NCBI RefSeq assembly: GCF_030848565.1 | Contig: NZ_JAVDDV010000001.1 | Coordinates: 310,001 to 374,000, forward strand | DNA length: 64,000 bases | From: Natronolimnohabitans sp. A-GB9 | Lineage (GTDB): Archaea; Halobacteriota; Halobacteria; Halobacteriales; Natrialbaceae | Reading direction: 5' to 3' | Shown: positions 49,417 through 56,686 of the stretch, piece after piece | Layout: the number at the start of each line of letters is the position of its first letter | How positions within the stretch are numbered: position 1 is the first letter of the stretch | Made by a program: the position numbers and the translations under genes | The notes under the pieces: generated by a model | What the model was told of the DNA's origin: nothing | Databases searched by the model: none | The model's input: only the letters and a program-made list of their open reading frames with translations

Positions 49417-49592
49417 CGGACTGCTGTCTCTAGTACCAACTGAATCCGTTTACAATACCGTCCGGCGATCGGGTGTGCTGACGGTCAGTGGCTATTCTAG
49501 CATTTGCAGACTCATCTCGTGGCGGTACCGTCACAGCATTTGACAACCGTCAGTAGATTTATCAGTGTTTATTCGAATACTTGACCTGACTC

Positions 49593-49802
49593 ATGCCCAC
49601 GTGTGGCAATTGCGACGGATACGTGACGCGGGACTTCGTTCGAGTGTTCGGAATCGACGGCACGGTCTACGGCTGTCCGAACTGTTCGACGTATCGTGAA
49701 CTCTGTGACGGAAGCGGTGCCAATCGCGCCGTCGAGAATCAAGACGAACGGTCCGGTCTCGACGATCAGTTCTCGCAGACCGTCCCCGAAGAGATTCCGT
49801 AA
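49593..49802 (+). CDS. DUF7563-like small zinc finger protein
   Basis: A 69-residue protein. MPTCGNCDGYVTRDFVRVFG then GTVYGCPNCSTYRELCDG gives a CxxC...CxxC zinc site with the VTxDFxRVFG and YGCPxCxTYRxL words characteristic of the haloarchaeal DUF7563 family. The role is unknown; probably DNA or protein binding. Confidence 0.85.
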   Translation: MPTCGNCDGYVTRDFVRVFGIDGTVYGCPNCSTYRELCDGSGANRAVENQDERSGLDDQFSQTVPEEIP

Positions 49803-50387
49803 TTGGTCGCGCCGCTGATCAGTCGGAAGTCGGTGCTCCAACGAGGTACCGACTACAGTTTACAGCGGTAGCGAGGCGAACGCCCACCTCTCGCCGCTCG
49901 AGAGGCGTCGTTACGGTAAGCGATGACCGTCGCTGTAGCTCGAGAACCTCTCGGTCGTCGCCTAGTACGGTAGCTGTATTGTCTCGAGCGGACCGACTAC
50001 TGATCGAGTTCGTCGACGGTCGTGAATGGCATGAGAACAGAAGGATGGCGAGGATCCATACTCTCGTAATGTGGACAGCCTCGGAGGTCACGATCGGCCC
50101 ACAGTGGTCGGATTGGTATGTGTAGTCGTATCGTGTGAACCACTCCTGTGGTAATAGGTAACATGACACGCTAAATAAACGTTACTGTAGCGGAAAGCGC
50201 CATTGTTCAGATTAGCTGAGTCCATAGTATGCGTCGCTTTGCAACCATGCTTCGGCGGTTGCTGGGTCTGCGCTTCCGCAAGCGGTATAGGAGAAGGCCC
50301 CAGGGTCGTTCGGAAATGGGATATTTCCATGATCACGAGAATCTCCGATTCTCGAATCACTTGACCCAGAGACGATTCACTGTGCCG
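49803..50387. other. Intergenic region, nothing recognised
   Basis: Frames on both strands are basic and Cys/Arg-rich, unlike genes of this genome. GC content is lower than average. Likely decayed accessory DNA between the zinc finger gene and the protease. Confidence 0.5.
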
Positions 50388-52142
50388 TTACAGATCCGTA
50401 CACTTCAAATCGGCCTCGTTGTTATTTTCGTCAATAACGGTAAGTCGGACCGCCTCCGGTTTGTTACGGGTTCTGAGGGAGTGTCTGTCCGAACTGGTAG
50501 TGTCACGGATATCCGTTGTTTCAGCGTCCAAGACAGCACCGTCCCCATCCATCAGTTCTGTCGTGGCTTCGTAGAGGTCACCATCCTCGTTTGAGACCTC
50601 CCATTCGACATCTGCACGGGTCCACGGCCCCGTGTTTCGTGGCTGGACTGTGAACTCTTCGATCACGGAGTCAGTGTCAGTCGGTTCATCCCCGCTGCCA
50701 GTGGTGAACGTATCCGTCTCGCCCACTTGCGTAGTGTCGCCCGCCTCGGCGACAGCACGAAACTCGTATTCCGTACTGCTTCCAAGGGTAGTCACCTCCG
50801 AATCGAACTCACTCGAAGATTCTAGAGTTTGTCTCTCAGTCGTGGTCCATCGATCACTGTCGCTTTCACGCCATTCGAAGTAGACCGTCACTTCATCGTA
50901 TCCTTTCAATTTTGTTACCTTCCCAGTGAGAGTAGCCGATGAGTCGGTTACGTCGTTACTACTGGTAGTTTCAATTGCAAGGTCTTTCCCACCGGCGTCG
51001 TCCTCTTCGCCGTTAGTAACGAGTGCTTCAACGTTTAGAAGACCGCTCCCCTGTTCTGTTTCTTTAAGTTCGAGATCTACCGCGGTGTCAGTCAGTTCCG
51101 TCTCTACCTCCGTGTGATCCTTTCCGGTTGCCATCAGGTATGCAGCAGCACCCGCGACGTGCGGCGCTGCCATAGATGTTCCACTTTGGGTAGTATACTG
51201 GTTGTCCAGATGTGTAGAGTAGATTCGCTCTCCCGGCGCAGCGATGTCGACCTCCTCACCACGTGAAGATAGGTCAGCGATAGAATCATCTTCAGTGGTT
51301 GCGCTGACAGCAATACACTCCTCATAAGCGGCAGGATATAGAACGGTATCCTCGTCCGGACCGTTATTTCCTGCCGCTGCAACGATCACCGTCCCCTCCT
51401 TGGCCGCATACCTGACGGCGTCTTTGATCGCATCGGAGTCGACGCTACTACCGAGGCTGAGATTCCCGACGTCGATCCCCTGGTTGACGGCCCACTCGAT
51501 TGCGGCAGCAACGTCAGTGTTTGTACCGGTCCCGTCGTCGTCCAGAACTTTTACTGCGTACAGTTCGGCTTCGGGTGCGACGCCGACAACACCGACATCA
51601 TTGTCGAGAGCGGTCGCGATACCAGCGGCAGATGTCCCATGCCCATTCCTGTCTGTCCAATCGTCTGTACTTTCACCAGTGAAATTCTGGCCGCCAGCGA
51701 CACGTAAGGACTCATGGTCGGGATCGATACCCGTGTCGATAATCGCGATTTTGCTACCTGATGCCTCGATATCGTCGTCATTGATAGCTACGTCGGCGTT
51801 GGTTCGATCAATTCCCCATGGTACCGATTGGTCACCGAGAGCTTTCACCTCTACCTCGGGCTCGATGTACCGGACGTTTGGGTTGTTCCGTAGCGCGCTC
51901 AACGCTTGCTGGGGAAACCGCCCGGAAACGACCTGACCGACATCACCGAAATCGAGTTCTCGATATACATCGTCGGCCTCTCGGCGGGCCAGACCAGCCT
52001 GTCCAGGTTTCACCCCAACGATATAGCGCTCAGGTGGCTTTTTTTGTTCTGCGTTAACCGGCTGTATGCTGACGACACTGCTTACACCGACCCCACCAGC
52101 ACCTTGTAGTACGCGCCTCCGCGATAGAGTATTTCCTGACAT
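50388..52142 (-). CDS. Subtilisin-like serine protease (halolysin type), Tat-exported
   Basis: A 584-residue S8 peptidase. Tat signal SRRRVLQGAGGVGVSS, an inhibitor-like propeptide (residues 38-100, RYIVGVKPGQAGLARREADD and NPNVRYIEPEVEV), then the catalytic domain with Asp136 (AIIDTGIDPDHE), His168 (NGHGTSAAGIA), oxyanion Asn259 (AAAGNNGP) and Ser323 (SGTSMAAPHVAGAAAYLMA). After residue about 375 come two beta-sandwich domains, the first fibronectin type III-like (SATLTGKVTKL, VYFEWRESDSDRWTTTE, YEFRAVAEAGDTTQVGE). Extracellular protein degradation. It lies in the gene-poor, decayed part of the window and its codon use is more relaxed (more AT), consistent with acquired DNA. Confidence 0.94.
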   Translation of the reverse strand: MSGNTLSRRRVLQGAGGVGVSSVVSIQPVNAEQKKPPERYIVGVKPGQAGLARREADDVYRELDFGDVGQVVSGRFPQQALSALRNNPNVRYIEPEVEVKALGDQSVPWGIDRTNADVAINDDDIEASGSKIAIIDTGIDPDHESLRVAGGQNFTGESTDDWTDRNGHGTSAAGIATALDNDVGVVGVAPEAELYAVKVLDDDGTGTNTDVAAAIEWAVNQGIDVGNLSLGSSVDSDAIKDAVRYAAKEGTVIVAAAGNNGPDEDTVLYPAAYEECIAVSATTEDDSIADLSSRGEEVDIAAPGERIYSTHLDNQYTTQSGTSMAAPHVAGAAAYLMATGKDHTEVETELTDTAVDLELKETEQGSGLLNVEALVTNGEEDDAGGKDLAIETTSSNDVTDSSATLTGKVTKLKGYDEVTVYFEWRESDSDRWTTTERQTLESSSEFDSEVTTLGSSTEYEFRAVAEAGDTTQVGETDTFTTGSGDEPTDTDSVIEEFTVQPRNTGPWTRADVEWEVSNEDGDLYEATTELMDGDGAVLDAETTDIRDTTSSDRHSLRTRNKPEAVRLTVIDENNNEADLKCTDL

Positions 52143-52472
52143 ACATCAAGTAATAATAATTTAGTATATAATTATATTTCGGAATGGACGATGCAATAAC
52201 ATCTTTAGATCGTCTCGTTCTCTCGCTGTTAGCCCGGTGCTCGATCGAACGGGTCCGAGCGTCCTGCACCATGTACACGGTGATGTCGACACGATCTCGC
52301 TCTGTTCAACGTCTCTCGAGAAGGCGAGCCGCCTGATCGTTCGTGCCAAGCGCTCCGAAAATATAGCGGTCGTATCGAGGGTCTTCACGCGCCCGGTTGT
52401 CGGCTTCTTCGCCGACCTCGAGGGTCGGGGCATCCGCCTCGTATCGTCTGTGAAACGAGCACGGCGGCCGTT
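52143..52472. other. Intergenic region between protease and pseudogene
   Basis: AT-rich for the first 60 bases (protease promoter), then no recognisable gene. Short frames only. Confidence 0.5.
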
Positions 52473-53468
52473 TCAGGATCCGGTCGCGTCGACGAATTCG
52501 GCGAGTTCCGTCCTCGCTTCTGCCGTCTCGGGTTCCTCCGCAGCCTCGACCCCCGCTGCATCTGGGGATCCTGCCGTCCCTTCGGTAAACAGGATCCCGT
52601 TTACCTCGATCTGATTGTCGTCTCCAGTGATGATGGTCGGGCCAAGTGGATTCTCCCCGGCAGTGTTGCCACGTCCGGTATTACGGTTCGATGCCAACAG
52701 GAGATACCCGGGGCCGCCACCAACGGCTGTATTCTCGTTTGCGGTGTTCTGAATGAGCGATTACCATCCGCGCCCCGAAGGGAAATCCCGAGTCCGTCGG
52801 CCCCGATCACGGTGTTTCCGAGAAGCCAGTTGTCGTTCGATTCGACGAGTTCAATTCCCGGGAAGAACGTATCAGTGGACGTATTCTGGGTGAGTACGTT
52901 TTCGTTCGACTGCGAGAGTAGTATCCCTAACCCACCGCTTTCGATACTGTTTTCGATGAGTTGGTTCCGATCAGAATCGAAGAGCGCGATGTGGGTGCCT
53001 ACCAGATCCGGAATCGTGCTCTGAACCTCTTTGATAAGCCCATCGGTGACGGTATCGAATACGATGCCGGCGAAGAGCGCCTCCAGGGAGAGATTCGTGA
53101 CCGTGACGTCCGAGATCGGTTCGCCATCGGGAGACTGCACCAAGACGCGGCCCCTTCGGCACCGAACTCATCCGGTCCGGTGATCGTCTGGCCCTATCCA
53201 TCCAAGAGGACGTCGCTCGATCGAATCACGATACAGGCTTCGCCCGGTTCCGCCTCGAGATCCTCCGTGAGGACGTACGATCCGGGTTCGGTAATCGTCG
53301 TACACTCGGTGATTGCCGTTCGGTCTCTCTCGTCGTTAGGTCGCTCGTCTTTTTTCTCCGTTGCGCCAACAGACCAGTACCGAATGTGACCGCGCCCAGC
53401 GCCGCAGCGCTTCCTGCGAGGTACGATCGTCGGTTTACTGCGTCGTCATCGTAACTGTTTTCTGACAT
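52473..53468 (-). pseudogene. Broken secreted right-handed beta-helix (NosD-like) gene
   Basis: Pieces of one protein lie in different frames. N-terminus (53226-53468): SYLAGSAAALGAVTFGTGLL, a Tat-like signal. Then in a second frame TITEPGSYVLTEDLEAEPGE and CIVIRSSDVLLDG followed by an in-frame TAG (53194-53196) where GQGQ is expected. Then a third piece (52745-53140) with repeats such as FDSDRNQLIENSIESGGLGI and SNENVLTQNTSTDTFFPGIE, the parallel beta-helix pattern. Finally a C-terminal piece (52473-52697) with NRNTGRGNTAGENPLGPTII. At least three frameshifts plus one stop make it inactive. It was likely a surface carbohydrate-binding or NosD/CASH-type protein. Confidence 0.85.
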
Positions 53469-54351
53469 TACGAGAGAGACGTTGCCCGATTCTATCTTTG
53501 TTATTTTAGCCGTATTGAATCATCTATAAACTGTATTATTCTGCTATAATGTGGCATTCTTTGCTAGCAGAATGGCGATAGTACGAGTATTTGATTGTAG
53601 AATGGACAGCTTCAATCACAATCGTAGCGGGACAACTCACTGATTTGGACGACAGTAATCGGTTTTTCACTCTTCATATCGCTGCGTGTGAAACGTTGAT
53701 CGGTTTACTCATGGTCGGAGTAAGGCGCCCCTCCGATTCAAACGAGGTAGCGAGACGGATTTCCCGCCCCACCGTAGGCGGGGAGGAAGCCGACACTCGC
53801 TACGCCACACAGATCAGTTACTGTGTGGCATCCCAACTCGATGGTAGTGGTCGGCGGCCAACAGTTGTGGTCGGCTACGGTTCGCCGTCAACCAACTCTC
53901 GAAGTTAGGGATGCCGATCTGTGAACGCCCGAACGCTCTTCGGGTACGACGCGGTGAACCCACTGGCAAGTCATGGCTCACCCGCCTGTGGGGGTTGACA
54001 TCTCTCACAGATCGAACCACAGCTCATGGTGTATTCAGTGGAAAAAGCGGTCTGCTAACGGAATTTGAGTCCGTAATCTAATCCTTCCGAAGGATCCGTA
54101 TCGATAGTCAGGGCGTCATTGGATGCGTCGTGTATGGTTATCCAGAGGAAAATATACTGATATAATCACTCTTTATTCAATATATTTGTTACCCAAATCT
54201 AATGGAGCAGTCACAGAGTCTGTGGATGCTGAACGGGGTGTGGATTCCAACAGCATCTGCGATGATATTTAACTGGGCCGATGATTCGATCGCTTGTCCA
54301 GTGGGTGATGGGAACAGTTAACAAGACTCGTCGAGACTGTGGTAGGTGCGC
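53469..54351. other. Gene-free AT-rich stretch with an insertion-sequence scar
   Basis: 53469-53730 and 54060-54260 are strongly AT-rich without supported genes. Between them, 53740-54010 holds hairpin sequences resembling IS200/IS605 ends. The whole interval separates the pseudogene from the thiolase gene and looks like a graveyard of past insertions. Confidence 0.55.
53745..54012 (-). mobile_element. Decayed IS200/IS605-type element
   Basis: On the minus strand the sequence reads GGCTTCCTCCCCGCC next to TACGGTGGGGCGGGAAAT, a hairpin like that at 48760, and at the other end GATGTCAACCCCCACAGGCG, similar to TTGACATC-type ends. No intact transposase frame exists. The identity is by resemblance only. 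Confidence 0.4.
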
Positions 54352-55521
54352 ATGCCAGAGCCAGTCATCGCGTCGGTCGGCGCCTCGGCGCTCGGCCGCA
54401 CGGACCTCCCGGGTCGCGACCTGTTCTCGGTCGCCCTCGAGGAGGCGTTCGACGAACTGCCCGACCCTGCCGATCTCGTCGAGGCGGTGTACGTCGGCAA
54501 CCAGTCGGAGAGCTACGAACACCAGATCATGTACGGGACGCTTTTGGCCGAGTGGGCCGGCCTCCGTCACGTCCCCGCCGAGCGGGTCGAAGGGTGTGCC
54601 GCCGCGGGCGCGCTCGCGTTGCGCCACGCGGTCAAAGACGTCCGCAACGGCGAACACGAGGCCGTGCTCGCGTGCGGCGTCGAGAAGATGACGTCGGCGG
54701 GCACCAGCGGCGCGACGGACGCACTGTCGGCGGCGTTCGACCGTGCCATCGAGCAGCGCTCTGGCATCACCGCGCCCAGCCAGTACGCATTGCTCGCCAA
54801 GCGCTACCTCCACGAGACGAATGCCACGGAACACGACCTCGCTGAGATCGCAGTGAAGAACCACGCAAACGCCGCTCGCAATCCCCGGGCGCAGTTTCCG
54901 AAGGAGATCGACGTGGAGACGGTCCTGGAATCTGACCCCATCGCCCCGCCGTTGAAGCTCTACGACTGTGCGCCGGTCGGGGACGGTGCCGCGGCCGTCC
55001 TGGTGACGACCGCCGAGCTGGCGGCCGACCTCGGCCGCCCGCAGGTGCGCGTCGCAGGCAGTGGGGCCTCCGCGAACAACATCGCGGTCGCCGAGCGGGA
55101 CATGACCGACATCGCGGGTGCTCGCATCGCCGCCGAGACGGCTTACGAGGAAGCGGGCATCGACGCCGCGGCTGTCGATATCGCGGAAGTTCACGATGCC
55201 TTCACCGTCTGTGAGGCGCTGCTTGCGGAGGCCGCCGGCTTCGCCCCCGCGGGAACGGGCTATCAGAGCTACCAGTCGCCAGCGGAGCGGGCAGACGGCT
55301 GGACTGACGTGCAGTTGAGTCCGAGCGGCGGACTGAAGGCTCGCGGCCATCCCATCGGCGCGACCGGGCTCTTGCAGGCACTCGAAGCCTACGAACAGCT
55401 CACTGGGGCCGCAGGCGACCGCGCGATCGAAGGGGCCGAGACGGCCTTGTTGCTCAACGAAGGCGGCGTCGCGGACGCCGTCACCGTCGGTCACGTACTC
55501 ACGACGGCGGAGGCACCATGA
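54352..55521 (+). CDS. Thiolase / acetyl-CoA C-acyltransferase, archaeal SCP-x type
   Basis: A 389-residue thiolase-fold protein. The nucleophile Cys lies in VEGCAAAGALALRHAVKDV, the catalytic His in AEVHDAFTVCEALLAEA and the conserved GLKARGHPIGATGLLQALEA closes the active site; the usual second Cys near the C-terminus is replaced (LLLNEGGVADAV), as in archaeal SCP-x-like thiolases. Start ATG at 54352, with GTG 54346 as alternative. It overlaps the next gene by 4 bases (ATGA) and works with it: thiolase plus DUF35 protein form a channel complex with HMG-CoA synthase in other archaea, though here the HMG-CoA synthase is not adjacent. The pair lies between insertion scars and the tRNA-Ala duplication, so transfer is possible. 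Confidence 0.92.
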   Translation: MPEPVIASVGASALGRTDLPGRDLFSVALEEAFDELPDPADLVEAVYVGNQSESYEHQIMYGTLLAEWAGLRHVPAERVEGCAAAGALALRHAVKDVRNGEHEAVLACGVEKMTSAGTSGATDALSAAFDRAIEQRSGITAPSQYALLAKRYLHETNATEHDLAEIAVKNHANAARNPRAQFPKEIDVETVLESDPIAPPLKLYDCAPVGDGAAAVLVTTAELAADLGRPQVRVAGSGASANNIAVAERDMTDIAGARIAAETAYEEAGIDAAAVDIAEVHDAFTVCEALLAEAAGFAPAGTGYQSYQSPAERADGWTDVQLSPSGGLKARGHPIGATGLLQALEAYEQLTGAAGDRAIEGAETALLLNEGGVADAVTVGHVLTTAEAP

Positions 55522-55949
55522 CTGACGGTGACCTCGATGCGACCGATCCGCGGACACTGCCGGGCTTTTTCGACGCCCTTGCGGACGGCAAACTCCTGGG
55601 CGGGGTCTGTACGGACTGTGGACAGGTACTGTTACCGCCGCGGCCGGCCTGCTACGCCTGCGGCAGTCGCGCCGTCGACGTCGAACCGCAGTCGCGAGAG
55701 GGCACGGTCTTCTCGTACACGGAGGTTCACACGCCGCCGCCGGCGTTCGCGGCGGACGCGCCCTACACGGTCGCCGTCGTGGAACTCGCGGACGGTGGCC
55801 GCCTCCTTGGGCGCGTGGCCGCCGACTACAGCGACGTCGCAATCGGTGACTCGGTCGAACTCACGGTGCACGAGCCAACGGCCGCAGAGCGGGAGGTCGC
55901 GCTCGACTACGAGACCGACTGGCCGGTCCACATCTTCGAGCCACGGTGA
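55518..55949 (+). CDS. DUF35 Zn-ribbon/OB-fold acyl-CoA-binding protein
   Basis: A 143-residue partner of thiolases. GGVCTDCGQVLLPPRPACYA then CG gives the rubredoxin-like zinc site (CxxC...CxxC), followed by the OB fold (VFSYTEVHTPPPAFAADAPY, VAVVELADGGRLLGRVA, IGDSVELTVHEPT). In archaea such proteins hold CoA intermediates between thiolase and HMG-CoA synthase. Its ATG overlaps the thiolase stop by 4 bases, so the two are an operon. Confidence 0.93.
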   Translation: MTDGDLDATDPRTLPGFFDALADGKLLGGVCTDCGQVLLPPRPACYACGSRAVDVEPQSREGTVFSYTEVHTPPPAFAADAPYTVAVVELADGGRLLGRVAADYSDVAIGDSVELTVHEPTAAEREVALDYETDWPVHIFEPR

Positions 55950-56343
55950 AGGTCAGGCCCGGCTCTACATCGGTAACAGGCAGAGTGGCCCAGGCCACCG
56001 TTCCTGTGGCAGTTGCCATCACGTCCCAGTGATTGTCGAGAGACAGGTGCAACTCTCCGTCTCTGAGTGAGGGTTCGGTAAAAGGGCGTTGACGCCGTCT
56101 GTTCTGTCTGGTCGCGGCGTGCTCGGAATGGATCCGCCGGGATCGAGCAAACCCTACGGGTTTGCACTGTTCGGCGAGTTCACGACTGAACGAGCGAAGC
56201 GACGTGAAGAAGTGGACTCGCCGGGATTTGAACCATTGGAAGACGGTCGCTCGCTTCGCTCGCGCTGCGACTTCCAGGGGCTCAAATCCGGGCTTCGACG
56301 ACGATTCGCGCGACTCACGAACGTGTGAGCCGCGCAAAAATCA
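55950..56343. other. Intergenic region with duplicated tRNA 3' end
   Basis: No gene supported. It contains short palindromes (CAAACCCTACGGGTTTG at about 56147) and a copy of the tRNA-Ala 3' end with an inverted partner (56213-56300). Confidence 0.6.
56213..56234 (-). repeat. Duplicate of the tRNA-Ala 3' end (att-like)
   Basis: Exactly 22 bases identical to the first 22 plus-strand bases of the tRNA-Ala gene (56344-56365), covering its 3' acceptor strand and part of the T arm. Such direct duplications of a tRNA 3' end are left by tyrosine-integrase elements. An imperfect inverted copy (GGCTCAAATCCGGGC, 56278-56293) lies 44 bases further on. Confidence 0.75.
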
Positions 56344-56415
56344 TGGACTCGCCGGGATTTGAACCCGGGGCCTCTCCCATGCCAAGGGAGTGATCTACCT
56401 CTGATCTACGAGCCC
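56344..56415 (-). tRNA. tRNA-Ala (anticodon GGC)
   Basis: On the minus strand a full 72-base cloverleaf: acceptor GGGCTCG pairs with CGAGTCC, including the G3:U70 wobble pair that identifies alanine tRNAs; D arm GATC...GATC; anticodon stem CTCCC/GGGAG with loop TTGGCAT (anticodon GGC); T arm CCGGG/CCCGG with loop TTCAAAT; discriminator A. No intron. The CCA end is not encoded. The 3' half is duplicated at 56213-56234. Confidence 0.97.
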
Positions 56416-56686
56416 TCGTTCGCATTCATCCCTTTCTGGTGGGAATAGATAAACCCCTCGAAATTCTCGAGCCAACCCACACGTTACCACACAATCCCGG
56501 TACATAACGTATCCGACGTGAGTCCACCTCGAGCGAACCGACCCTCGAGACGATCTCACACGACTGGTTCGACCGCTCTAGAAACCCTTTAGTCGGTCCG
56601 ACCGAAAGCCCTGGTGGGAAGCGCACGGCCGCAAATCTGACTGTGTCGTCCACTATTTCGGGCGACTTGGGATTGCGGAAGTGCAC

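Follow-up and report, generated by a model that had tools for sequence, protein, structure and literature searches.

The DNA analysed here, called the window throughout, is a stretch of 64,000 nucleotides from Natronolimnohabitans sp. A-GB9. ARAGORN called only one tRNA in it, tRNA-Ala(GGC), at 56344–56415 on the minus strand. The features of the locus, read from the tRNA gene outward, are as follows:

56344–56415, minus strand: tRNA-Ala(GGC), the anchor or target gene (ARAGORN; RF00005, 67.3 bits)
56294–56343, minus strand: hairpin-bearing spacer (H1) that separates the tRNA from the left arm
56281–56293, minus strand: left arm, which repeats part of the T-arm of this tRNA in inverted orientation (about nt 54–64)
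56235–56280, minus strand: inner stem-loop core of the GGAAG-TCGCAGC...GACCGT-CTTCC subfamily, with a C-GAA-G mini-hairpin
56213–56233, minus strand: direct copy of tRNA-Ala nt 53–73, the right arm of the hairpin and the right end of the type-1 unit
56129–56212, minus strand: second unit, type 2, with an inverted acceptor end, a hairpin, and a short copy

An earlier note on this DNA had reported an exact 22-bp copy of the tRNA-Ala 3' end at 56213, 131 bp away from the original, and an inverted partial copy at about 56278. The exact copy was confirmed: with nt 52 included, 56213–56234 is identical to 56344–56365 over 22 nt, the repeat offset is 131 bp, and 109 bp lie between the tRNA and the copy. 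The inverted copy is also present, at 56281–56293, and is paired with the direct copy. A type-1 unit of 131 bp is made up of the spacer hairpin, this inverted T-arm, a stem-loop core, and the nt 53–73 copy, and in it the left arm, core, and direct copy folded into one long hairpin (DNA fold −22.3 kcal/mol, z −5.2; none of 200 shuffled sequences folded equally well). The type-2 unit has a worn copy at 56129–56143 with 2 mismatches over 15 nt; in relatives without type 1, a unit resembling it begins immediately after the tRNA. The sister unit behind tRNA-Ala(CGC), elsewhere in the genome, differs in its spacer sequence, and its hairpin is still readable. The 15-nt pattern alone is common, with 8 window matches at up to 3 mismatches vs. 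4.8 expected; the weight of the case lies in the exact 22-nt copy and its recurrence.

Open frames run through the unit at 56089–56328 (plus strand) and 55861–56337 (minus strand), with translations such as PGFEPLE...RSRCDFQG, and frames of this kind may be annotated as hypothetical proteins in haloarchaea. Rfam searches of 12 loci gave 14 matches at the gathering score, consisting of the 12 tRNAs and two ribosomal-protein leaders, and none at the unit. One match was the S15-Halobacteria leader (RF03143, 73.4 bits) upstream of rps15, at about 56614–56684 (plus strand) in the window (locus L020).

Of nine matches between the window unit and its own genome, one was the unit and two were the tRNA-Ala ends; the remaining six all adjoin tRNA genes, and each has a copy of its own tRNA's 3' end (the tRNA-Tyr copy being poor). 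The genome-wide survey was based on 44 tRNAs found with RF00005, 43 of them usable, and on the 200 nt downstream of each; ARAGORN made 45 calls, from which two longer than 110 nt were left out. A match of at least 16 of 22 positions to the tRNA's own 3' end was found behind 23 of the 43 tRNAs, 11 of them perfect with Asp among these, or behind 22 when Asp was not counted because its match is the neighbouring tRNA. At 18/22 or better, own ends matched for 20 of 43 tRNAs, vs. 16 of 1742 comparisons with the ends of other tRNAs; at 21/22 the numbers were 17 of 43 vs. 3. The ends of other tRNAs reached 16/22 in 188 of the 1742 comparisons, as expected because the T-loop is common to tRNAs. None of 2150 shuffled downstream stretches reached 16/22 to the own 3' end, and only 1 of 41 stretches taken 600–800 nt away did so. 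A chance origin of the own-end copies is excluded. Several tRNAs without a copy have apparent remnants behind them, either a spacer hairpin or an inverted T-arm. The two tRNA-Ala units of this genome are 97% identical over 111 bp, and their genes differ in the anticodon arm. At two loci (L032 and L021), tRNA-Asp and tRNA-Gly(GCC) stand in tandem, and both Gly copies have near-identical hairpin units with cores 0.96 alike; from this likeness, the tandem pair may have been duplicated together with its unit.

The anatomy of the unit was determined from 136 units carrying 53 genome or locus labels and lying behind tRNAs of 18 amino-acid types. Units entered this set only if no more than 4 of 17–19 copied positions differed from the tRNA; because of this selection, identity within the repeat (0.86–0.99 over nt 54–73) is inflated and identity at its edges is not. 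At the inner edge, identity rose from 0.27 at nt 51 to 0.70 at nt 52 and 0.93 at nt 53, and beyond nt 73 it fell to about 0.5 and then to 0.35–0.44. With identity of only 0.27 at nt 51, the copy does not reach into the 5' part of the tRNA, and duplication of the gene or a pseudo-tRNA was rejected as its source. Because the unit ends in a copy of nt 53–73 of its own tRNA, the tRNA stays whole. First units had a median length of 130 bp (10th–90th percentile 111–158; 104 units), and units of the family as a whole are mostly 110–160 bp long and contain no genes. Tandem arrays of near-identical units occur, such as two that are identical over 109 bp at Leu-TAG of this genome. Behind tRNA-Ala of Halorientalis pallida (L127) there are 88-bp tandem repeats, and behind another tRNA-Ala (L125) tandem repeats of ~55 bp; each repeat ends in the acceptor end of its own tRNA, as in type 2.

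Complementarity of the left arm runs from nt 54 to about nt 64 of the tRNA, and the arm is tRNA-specific only in part. At nt 57, it matched its own tRNA at 0.92 and other isotypes at 0.56; left arms were placed by their own best match, which inflates such loop positions, and the permutation test therefore used the stem only. Stem fit was 2.98 of 5 to the own tRNA vs. 2.20 of 5 to others, a result that none of 5000 permutations equalled, after 12 of 56 units had been dropped for a neighbouring tRNA, duplication, or a weak arm. The own tRNA was the best or tied for best in 21 of 44. Simple cut-and-paste gives no account of an arm that is only partly specific, and the match of the left arm to each tRNA is the least explained part of the unit.

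One way of obtaining such arms would be replication itself. Quasi-palindromes are known hot spots of template switching, and switching at T-arm palindromes would make inverted and direct copies locally, with no mobile element. That both copies come from the same tRNA, and that the arms fit their own tRNA above chance, agrees with this origin, which we nevertheless regard as improbable: independent local events would not give covarying cores that are shared across isotypes and genera, as described below. Quasi-palindrome correction as a continuing maker of arms was also considered, and rejected. At positions where the copy was mutated, the left arm agreed with the tRNA in 59 cases, with the copy in 9, and with neither in 9; because left arms mostly do not follow the mutated copy, no continuing correction is seen.

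The core of the hairpin is structurally conserved. Among 90 aligned units, 14 of 18 pairs had changed on both sides, with a covariation score of 0.374 vs. at most 0.087 for slid structures; the alignment used (A4) was fitted to the structure of the model and so favours that structure, and alignments A1 and A2 have some rows visibly misplaced. A C-GNA-G mini-hairpin with a further paired base was present on the tRNA strand of 99 of the 136 cores and on the other strand of 7, compared with an average of 10.7 in shuffled cores. At CGNAG places, the outer position was unpaired in 68 and paired in 112. GNA loops form very stable DNA mini-hairpins, and their presence on the tRNA strand is a hint of single-stranded DNA, although RNA would give an equal strand bias.

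An RNA-level role is the main rival explanation. The hairpins would be a cis-acting module transcribed with the tRNA and acting in 3' trailer processing, termination, or feedback; the antisense T-arm would be able to pair with the copy or with the tRNA, and variable presence would mean that the function is dispensable. Strong covariation, a strand-specific stem-loop, a fixed place and orientation downstream of tRNAs, and retention throughout the class all agree with such a module, and the 59-to-9 count at mutated copies would be expected if pairing with the tRNA were required. The same count is given equally by independent decay of the two arms, however, and the module accounts neither for the sharp-edged, near-exact copy of nt 53–73 and the stacking of units in arrays, nor for similar cores behind different tRNAs and the patchwork of occupied and empty loci at one site. 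Roughly half the tRNA genes of this genome have no unit. We consider the RNA module unlikely, while giving it more weight than template switching.

Similar cores recur at tRNAs of different kinds. For 115 of the 136 units, the nearest core in another genome was at least 0.70 alike, the amino acid of the two tRNAs being the same in 41 cases (10.2 expected) and different in 74; none of 136 shuffled cores reached 0.70, and no unit occurs under two genome labels. Thr-CGT shares a core with Glu-CTC, and Val-TAC with Gly-GCC, the arms in each being like those of the own tRNA. Because cores track the amino acid above chance, much of the spread has been within one tRNA kind or by descent.

The distribution of the family was examined with a covariance model built from 17 type-1 units. 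In the class and phylum searches, part of the candidates in each genome was scored, so that per-genome counts are lower bounds. At E ≤ 1e-5, matches were found in 111 of 116 haloarchaeal genomes and 43 of 46 genera of the class sample, with 1 to 35 per genome. In the phylum sample, which overlaps the class sample, 22 of 24 genomes of the order matched, and there were no matches in the other 124 archaeal genomes, 106 of which enter through the total and have no individual entry. In the A-GB9 genome, for which 150 of 3554 candidates were scored, all 17 model matches (E ≤ 0.01) coincided with tRNA loci. A tRNA was called upstream of the unit at 63 of 70 loci examined (27/30 and 36/40). The 27 among the 30 class-search loci include the Leu-TAA unit of this genome; at a 28th, a tRNA-Gly is split by Ns. 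The 40 phylum-search loci were weaker matches picked by hand, not at random, from the lower part of the list; 36 have a tRNA on the same strand within 650 nt and 31 have the own end of that tRNA, and at the remaining four, where no tRNA was called, the unit nevertheless ends in an apparent tRNA 3' end. The five class-sample genomes with no match at E ≤ 1e-5 were G014, G021, G039, G054, and G076; four of them have Cas1, and all have tyrosine recombinases. No description of tRNA-end hairpin units was found in searches of an open-access library, from which subscription papers are largely absent.

To follow presence and absence at one site, the neighbouring gene rps15 was used and gave 80 haloarchaeal loci, of which 55, together with the window, entered the comparison of the tRNA-Ala(GGC) site; loci were omitted if the retrieved flank contained no tRNA-Ala or the sequence was too short. 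Type 1 was present in 11 of the 56 (the window and 10 relatives, in one of which it is decayed) and absent from 45, where one locus (L082) was scored as occupied though its copy is lost and two island loci (L114 and L131) as empty. The earlier note had taken conservation of the duplicated segment in distant relatives without an element as the sign against its reading; the segment is present at this tRNA, with nothing integrated in between, in 10 of the 55 relatives, patchily. On the tree of the neighbouring genes, occupancy required at least 10 changes, the mean for shuffled labels being 10.2. For 6 of the 10 occupied relatives, what comes after the copy can be aligned, starting within a few bases, to the tRNA-adjacent sequence of loci without type 1, and that sequence is a type-2 unit; type 1 is therefore a precise insert there. 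Comparison of the window with Natrialba swarupiae (L086) likewise placed type 1 between the tRNA and shared downstream sequence.

The one probable congener compared (G240) has a tRNA-Ala flank equal to that of Natronolimnohabitans innermongolicus (L056) and differs from A-GB9 at many tRNAs. At Leu-CAG, A-GB9 is empty and the congener has a 126-bp unit followed by the same flank, which makes one clean empty and occupied pair. At Val-CAC and Leu-TAG, A-GB9 has one extra unit each, both adjacent to the tRNA. These three shifted pairs were used, the tandem-gene Gly pairs being omitted and most other flanks being too diverged; 2 of 393 control pairs passed the same test. Leu-GAG was rejected as a shifted pair: its flank matches at the tRNA in both genomes and again 304 nt further on in the congener, at an internal repeat of that flank. 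Units seem to come and go quickly. Because repeat-mediated deletion also leaves a clean empty site, presence and absence alone are no proof of insertion.

Order within arrays was polar. In type-1 arrays, the nearer copy was the more tRNA-like in 18 pairs, the farther in 3, and the two were equal in 10 (p 0.0015). A count over all types (34 vs. 8, with 6 equal, in 48 arrays) was set aside because type-2 units copy the acceptor end only and so score lower by construction; in both counts, some distant low-scoring copies are possibly chance matches. Polarity could alternatively come from conversion of the nearer copy.

The earlier note had read the repeat as the footprint of a single large element, brought in by an integrase at the tRNA 3' end and then mostly lost. 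Insertion at the tRNA 3' end is supported, and relatives do use tRNA-Ala(GGC) for integration, as two loci show. At these class-search loci, which have no called tRNA, the unit follows a partial tRNA-Ala end, and a 335-aa tyrosine integrase with PF00589 and SAM-like domains (Pfam) adjoins that end. The measured distance from tRNA-Ala(GGC) to the displaced partial end is about 16 kb in one (L192) and about 44 kb in the other (L193–L195). Islands therefore do enter tRNA-Ala(GGC), with pre-existing units on their far side, since in both the hairpin unit lies outside the integrase, past the displaced end. The window, too, has extra DNA next to its units: a segment of ~6.7 kb at 49417–56128 (49.4–56.1 kb), which separates a conserved gene from the tRNA-Ala units, is missing at three Natronorubrum loci. 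It contains a subtilase, a NosD-like beta-helix fragment, and a thiolase with a ChsH2-like OB protein, and GC content is lower (0.53–0.56) over 50–54 kb. The far edge has no tRNA-Ala end, and no integrase was found among ten ORFs scanned, a part of those between 47.2 and 58.5 kb. The extra DNA may be an island. The repeat itself belongs to the 131-bp hairpin unit, which has relatives throughout the class. Islands at tRNA-Ala(GGC) in two relatives and lower-GC DNA adjoining the unit are what a large-element scar would lead one to expect; recurrence of the same architecture at many tRNAs, in nearly all sampled haloarchaeal genomes, contradicts it, and the position of the unit outside the integrase in both islands speaks against it. 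We consider this reading very improbable indeed, the least probable of those weighed here.

Possible carriers and enzymes were sought in several ways. One core pattern gave 8 matches in viral contigs; they were treated as chance because none of these 8 loci had a tRNA by ARAGORN or a visible copied tRNA end beside the match. The window unit had only 2 short matches, at E 5, in phage records, and 6 in plasmids, two of them haloarchaeal. A plasmid of Natronorubrum bangense (L142) has its unit beside tRNA-Gly, and a plasmid of Natrinema thermotolerans (L143) next to a tRNA-Glu-like sequence without an ARAGORN call. Neither an enzyme nor an excised circle nor an autonomous partner came to light, and there was no autonomous transposon partner among the model matches examined. 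Tyrosine-recombinase matches in the A-GB9 genome number 17, of which 16 exceed the cut-off; none was singled out, and tyrosine recombinases were found in 12 of 12 genomes tested, whether unit-rich or unit-less. Matches to the integron integrase IntI (TIGR02249) were over the cut-off in 0 of 112 genomes; weaker matches occurred in 86 of the 112 and also in 14 of 14 control genomes.

Cas1 was present in 47 of the 112 genomes and had no match in 65. Integration of the Cas1 type, by a casposase or by CRISPR adaptation, would put the tRNA end into the duplicated part of the repeat and the newest unit next to the leader. Some casposons target tRNA 3' ends with target duplication, and a fixed duplicated stretch with polar growth, as in casposons and CRISPR arrays, agrees with the constant 21-nt duplication and the polarity seen here. 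Six unit-rich genomes (G071, G101, G001, G002, G032, and G062) are nevertheless among those without a Cas1 match, and four of the five unmatched genomes have the gene. We therefore regard Cas1-type integration as very unlikely.

The unit has partial likenesses to other known systems. Integrases use the tRNA T-stem-loop or 3' end, and the tRNA is reconstituted after integration (PMC8371274). Like the islands of tRNA-targeting tyrosine integrases (SSV, pNOB8, and SNJ2), the units use the T-stem-loop or 3' end and keep the tRNA; unlike them, they measure ~130 bp, have no coding content, share a conserved hairpin, and form stacked arrays. Of the marks by which a provirus or IME is recognised, the locus has the direct repeat of the tRNA 3' end (nt 53–73) and lacks an integrase between the repeats. 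MITEs, PATEs, and small mobile repeats of Haloquadratum have terminal inverted repeats or near-terminal palindromes of their own, and repeat-mediated deletion is described in that genus, including two cases with partial tRNA duplications (PMC3119063). Such elements are likewise short, gene-less, and palindromic, and repeat-mediated loss is thus known in haloarchaea (PMC3119063); in the present family, by contrast, the end of the unit is the sequence of the target tRNA and nearly all matches are at tRNAs.

A further likeness is to integron cassette arrays, with their attC hairpins and attI. Both systems have arrays apparently growing beside one anchor, and both have an imperfect hairpin with the core in its outer arms, unpaired spacers, and a variable inner stem. 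They differ in that the anchor here is a tRNA, the units are gene-less, the outer arms are partly tRNA-specific, and no IntI was over the cut-off. The attC R-box core has the consensus GTTRRRY; the unit core, GTTCRAA in the tRNA T-loop, has C at the fourth place and does not fit it. Archaeal integrons have been described, in an article whose main text is without words beginning haloarch- or Halobact- (PMC9668308).

We favour, with somewhat better than even confidence, the reading that the repeat belongs, as one unit, to a family of gene-less insertion cassettes that is specific to haloarchaea and lands on tRNA 3' ends. The family itself, of units standing behind tRNAs throughout the class, is probably mobile. 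Insertion would take place by strand exchange in the T-loop (TTCRAAT, nt 54–60), carried out by a recombinase supplied in trans; we place the exchange there because the edges run from the T-loop to the discriminator base, the tRNA is intact, and the empty site is precise. The folded single-stranded hairpin would be the recombination site, much as attC is in integrons, and repeat-mediated deletion across the 21-nt repeat could account for loss without trace. A bolder proposal, which we put forward tentatively and think on the whole doubtful, is that these arrays stand beside integrons and CRISPR as cassette arrays of a third kind, in which a T-loop recombinase that also uses a folded single strand stacks cassettes newest first and the arms are re-made for each tRNA.

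The repeat family is present in nearly every sampled haloarchaeal genome and, in A-GB9, at about half of the tRNA genes; it matches no Rfam family and is not described in the papers searched. For annotation, it follows that repeats of tRNA ends in haloarchaea are no proof of a provirus. If the bolder proposal is true, almost any haloarchaeal tRNA gene would be an anchor for gene-less hairpin cassettes, and haloarchaeal tRNAs would carry a record of turnover and a reserve of their own 3' ends, which could also be of help in restoring a tRNA that an island has used. The family gives a culturable archaeal system for three questions: the identity of the recombinase that acts on tRNA T-loops, the reason why insertions favour tRNA ends, and any use of folded single-stranded DNA sites beyond integrons.
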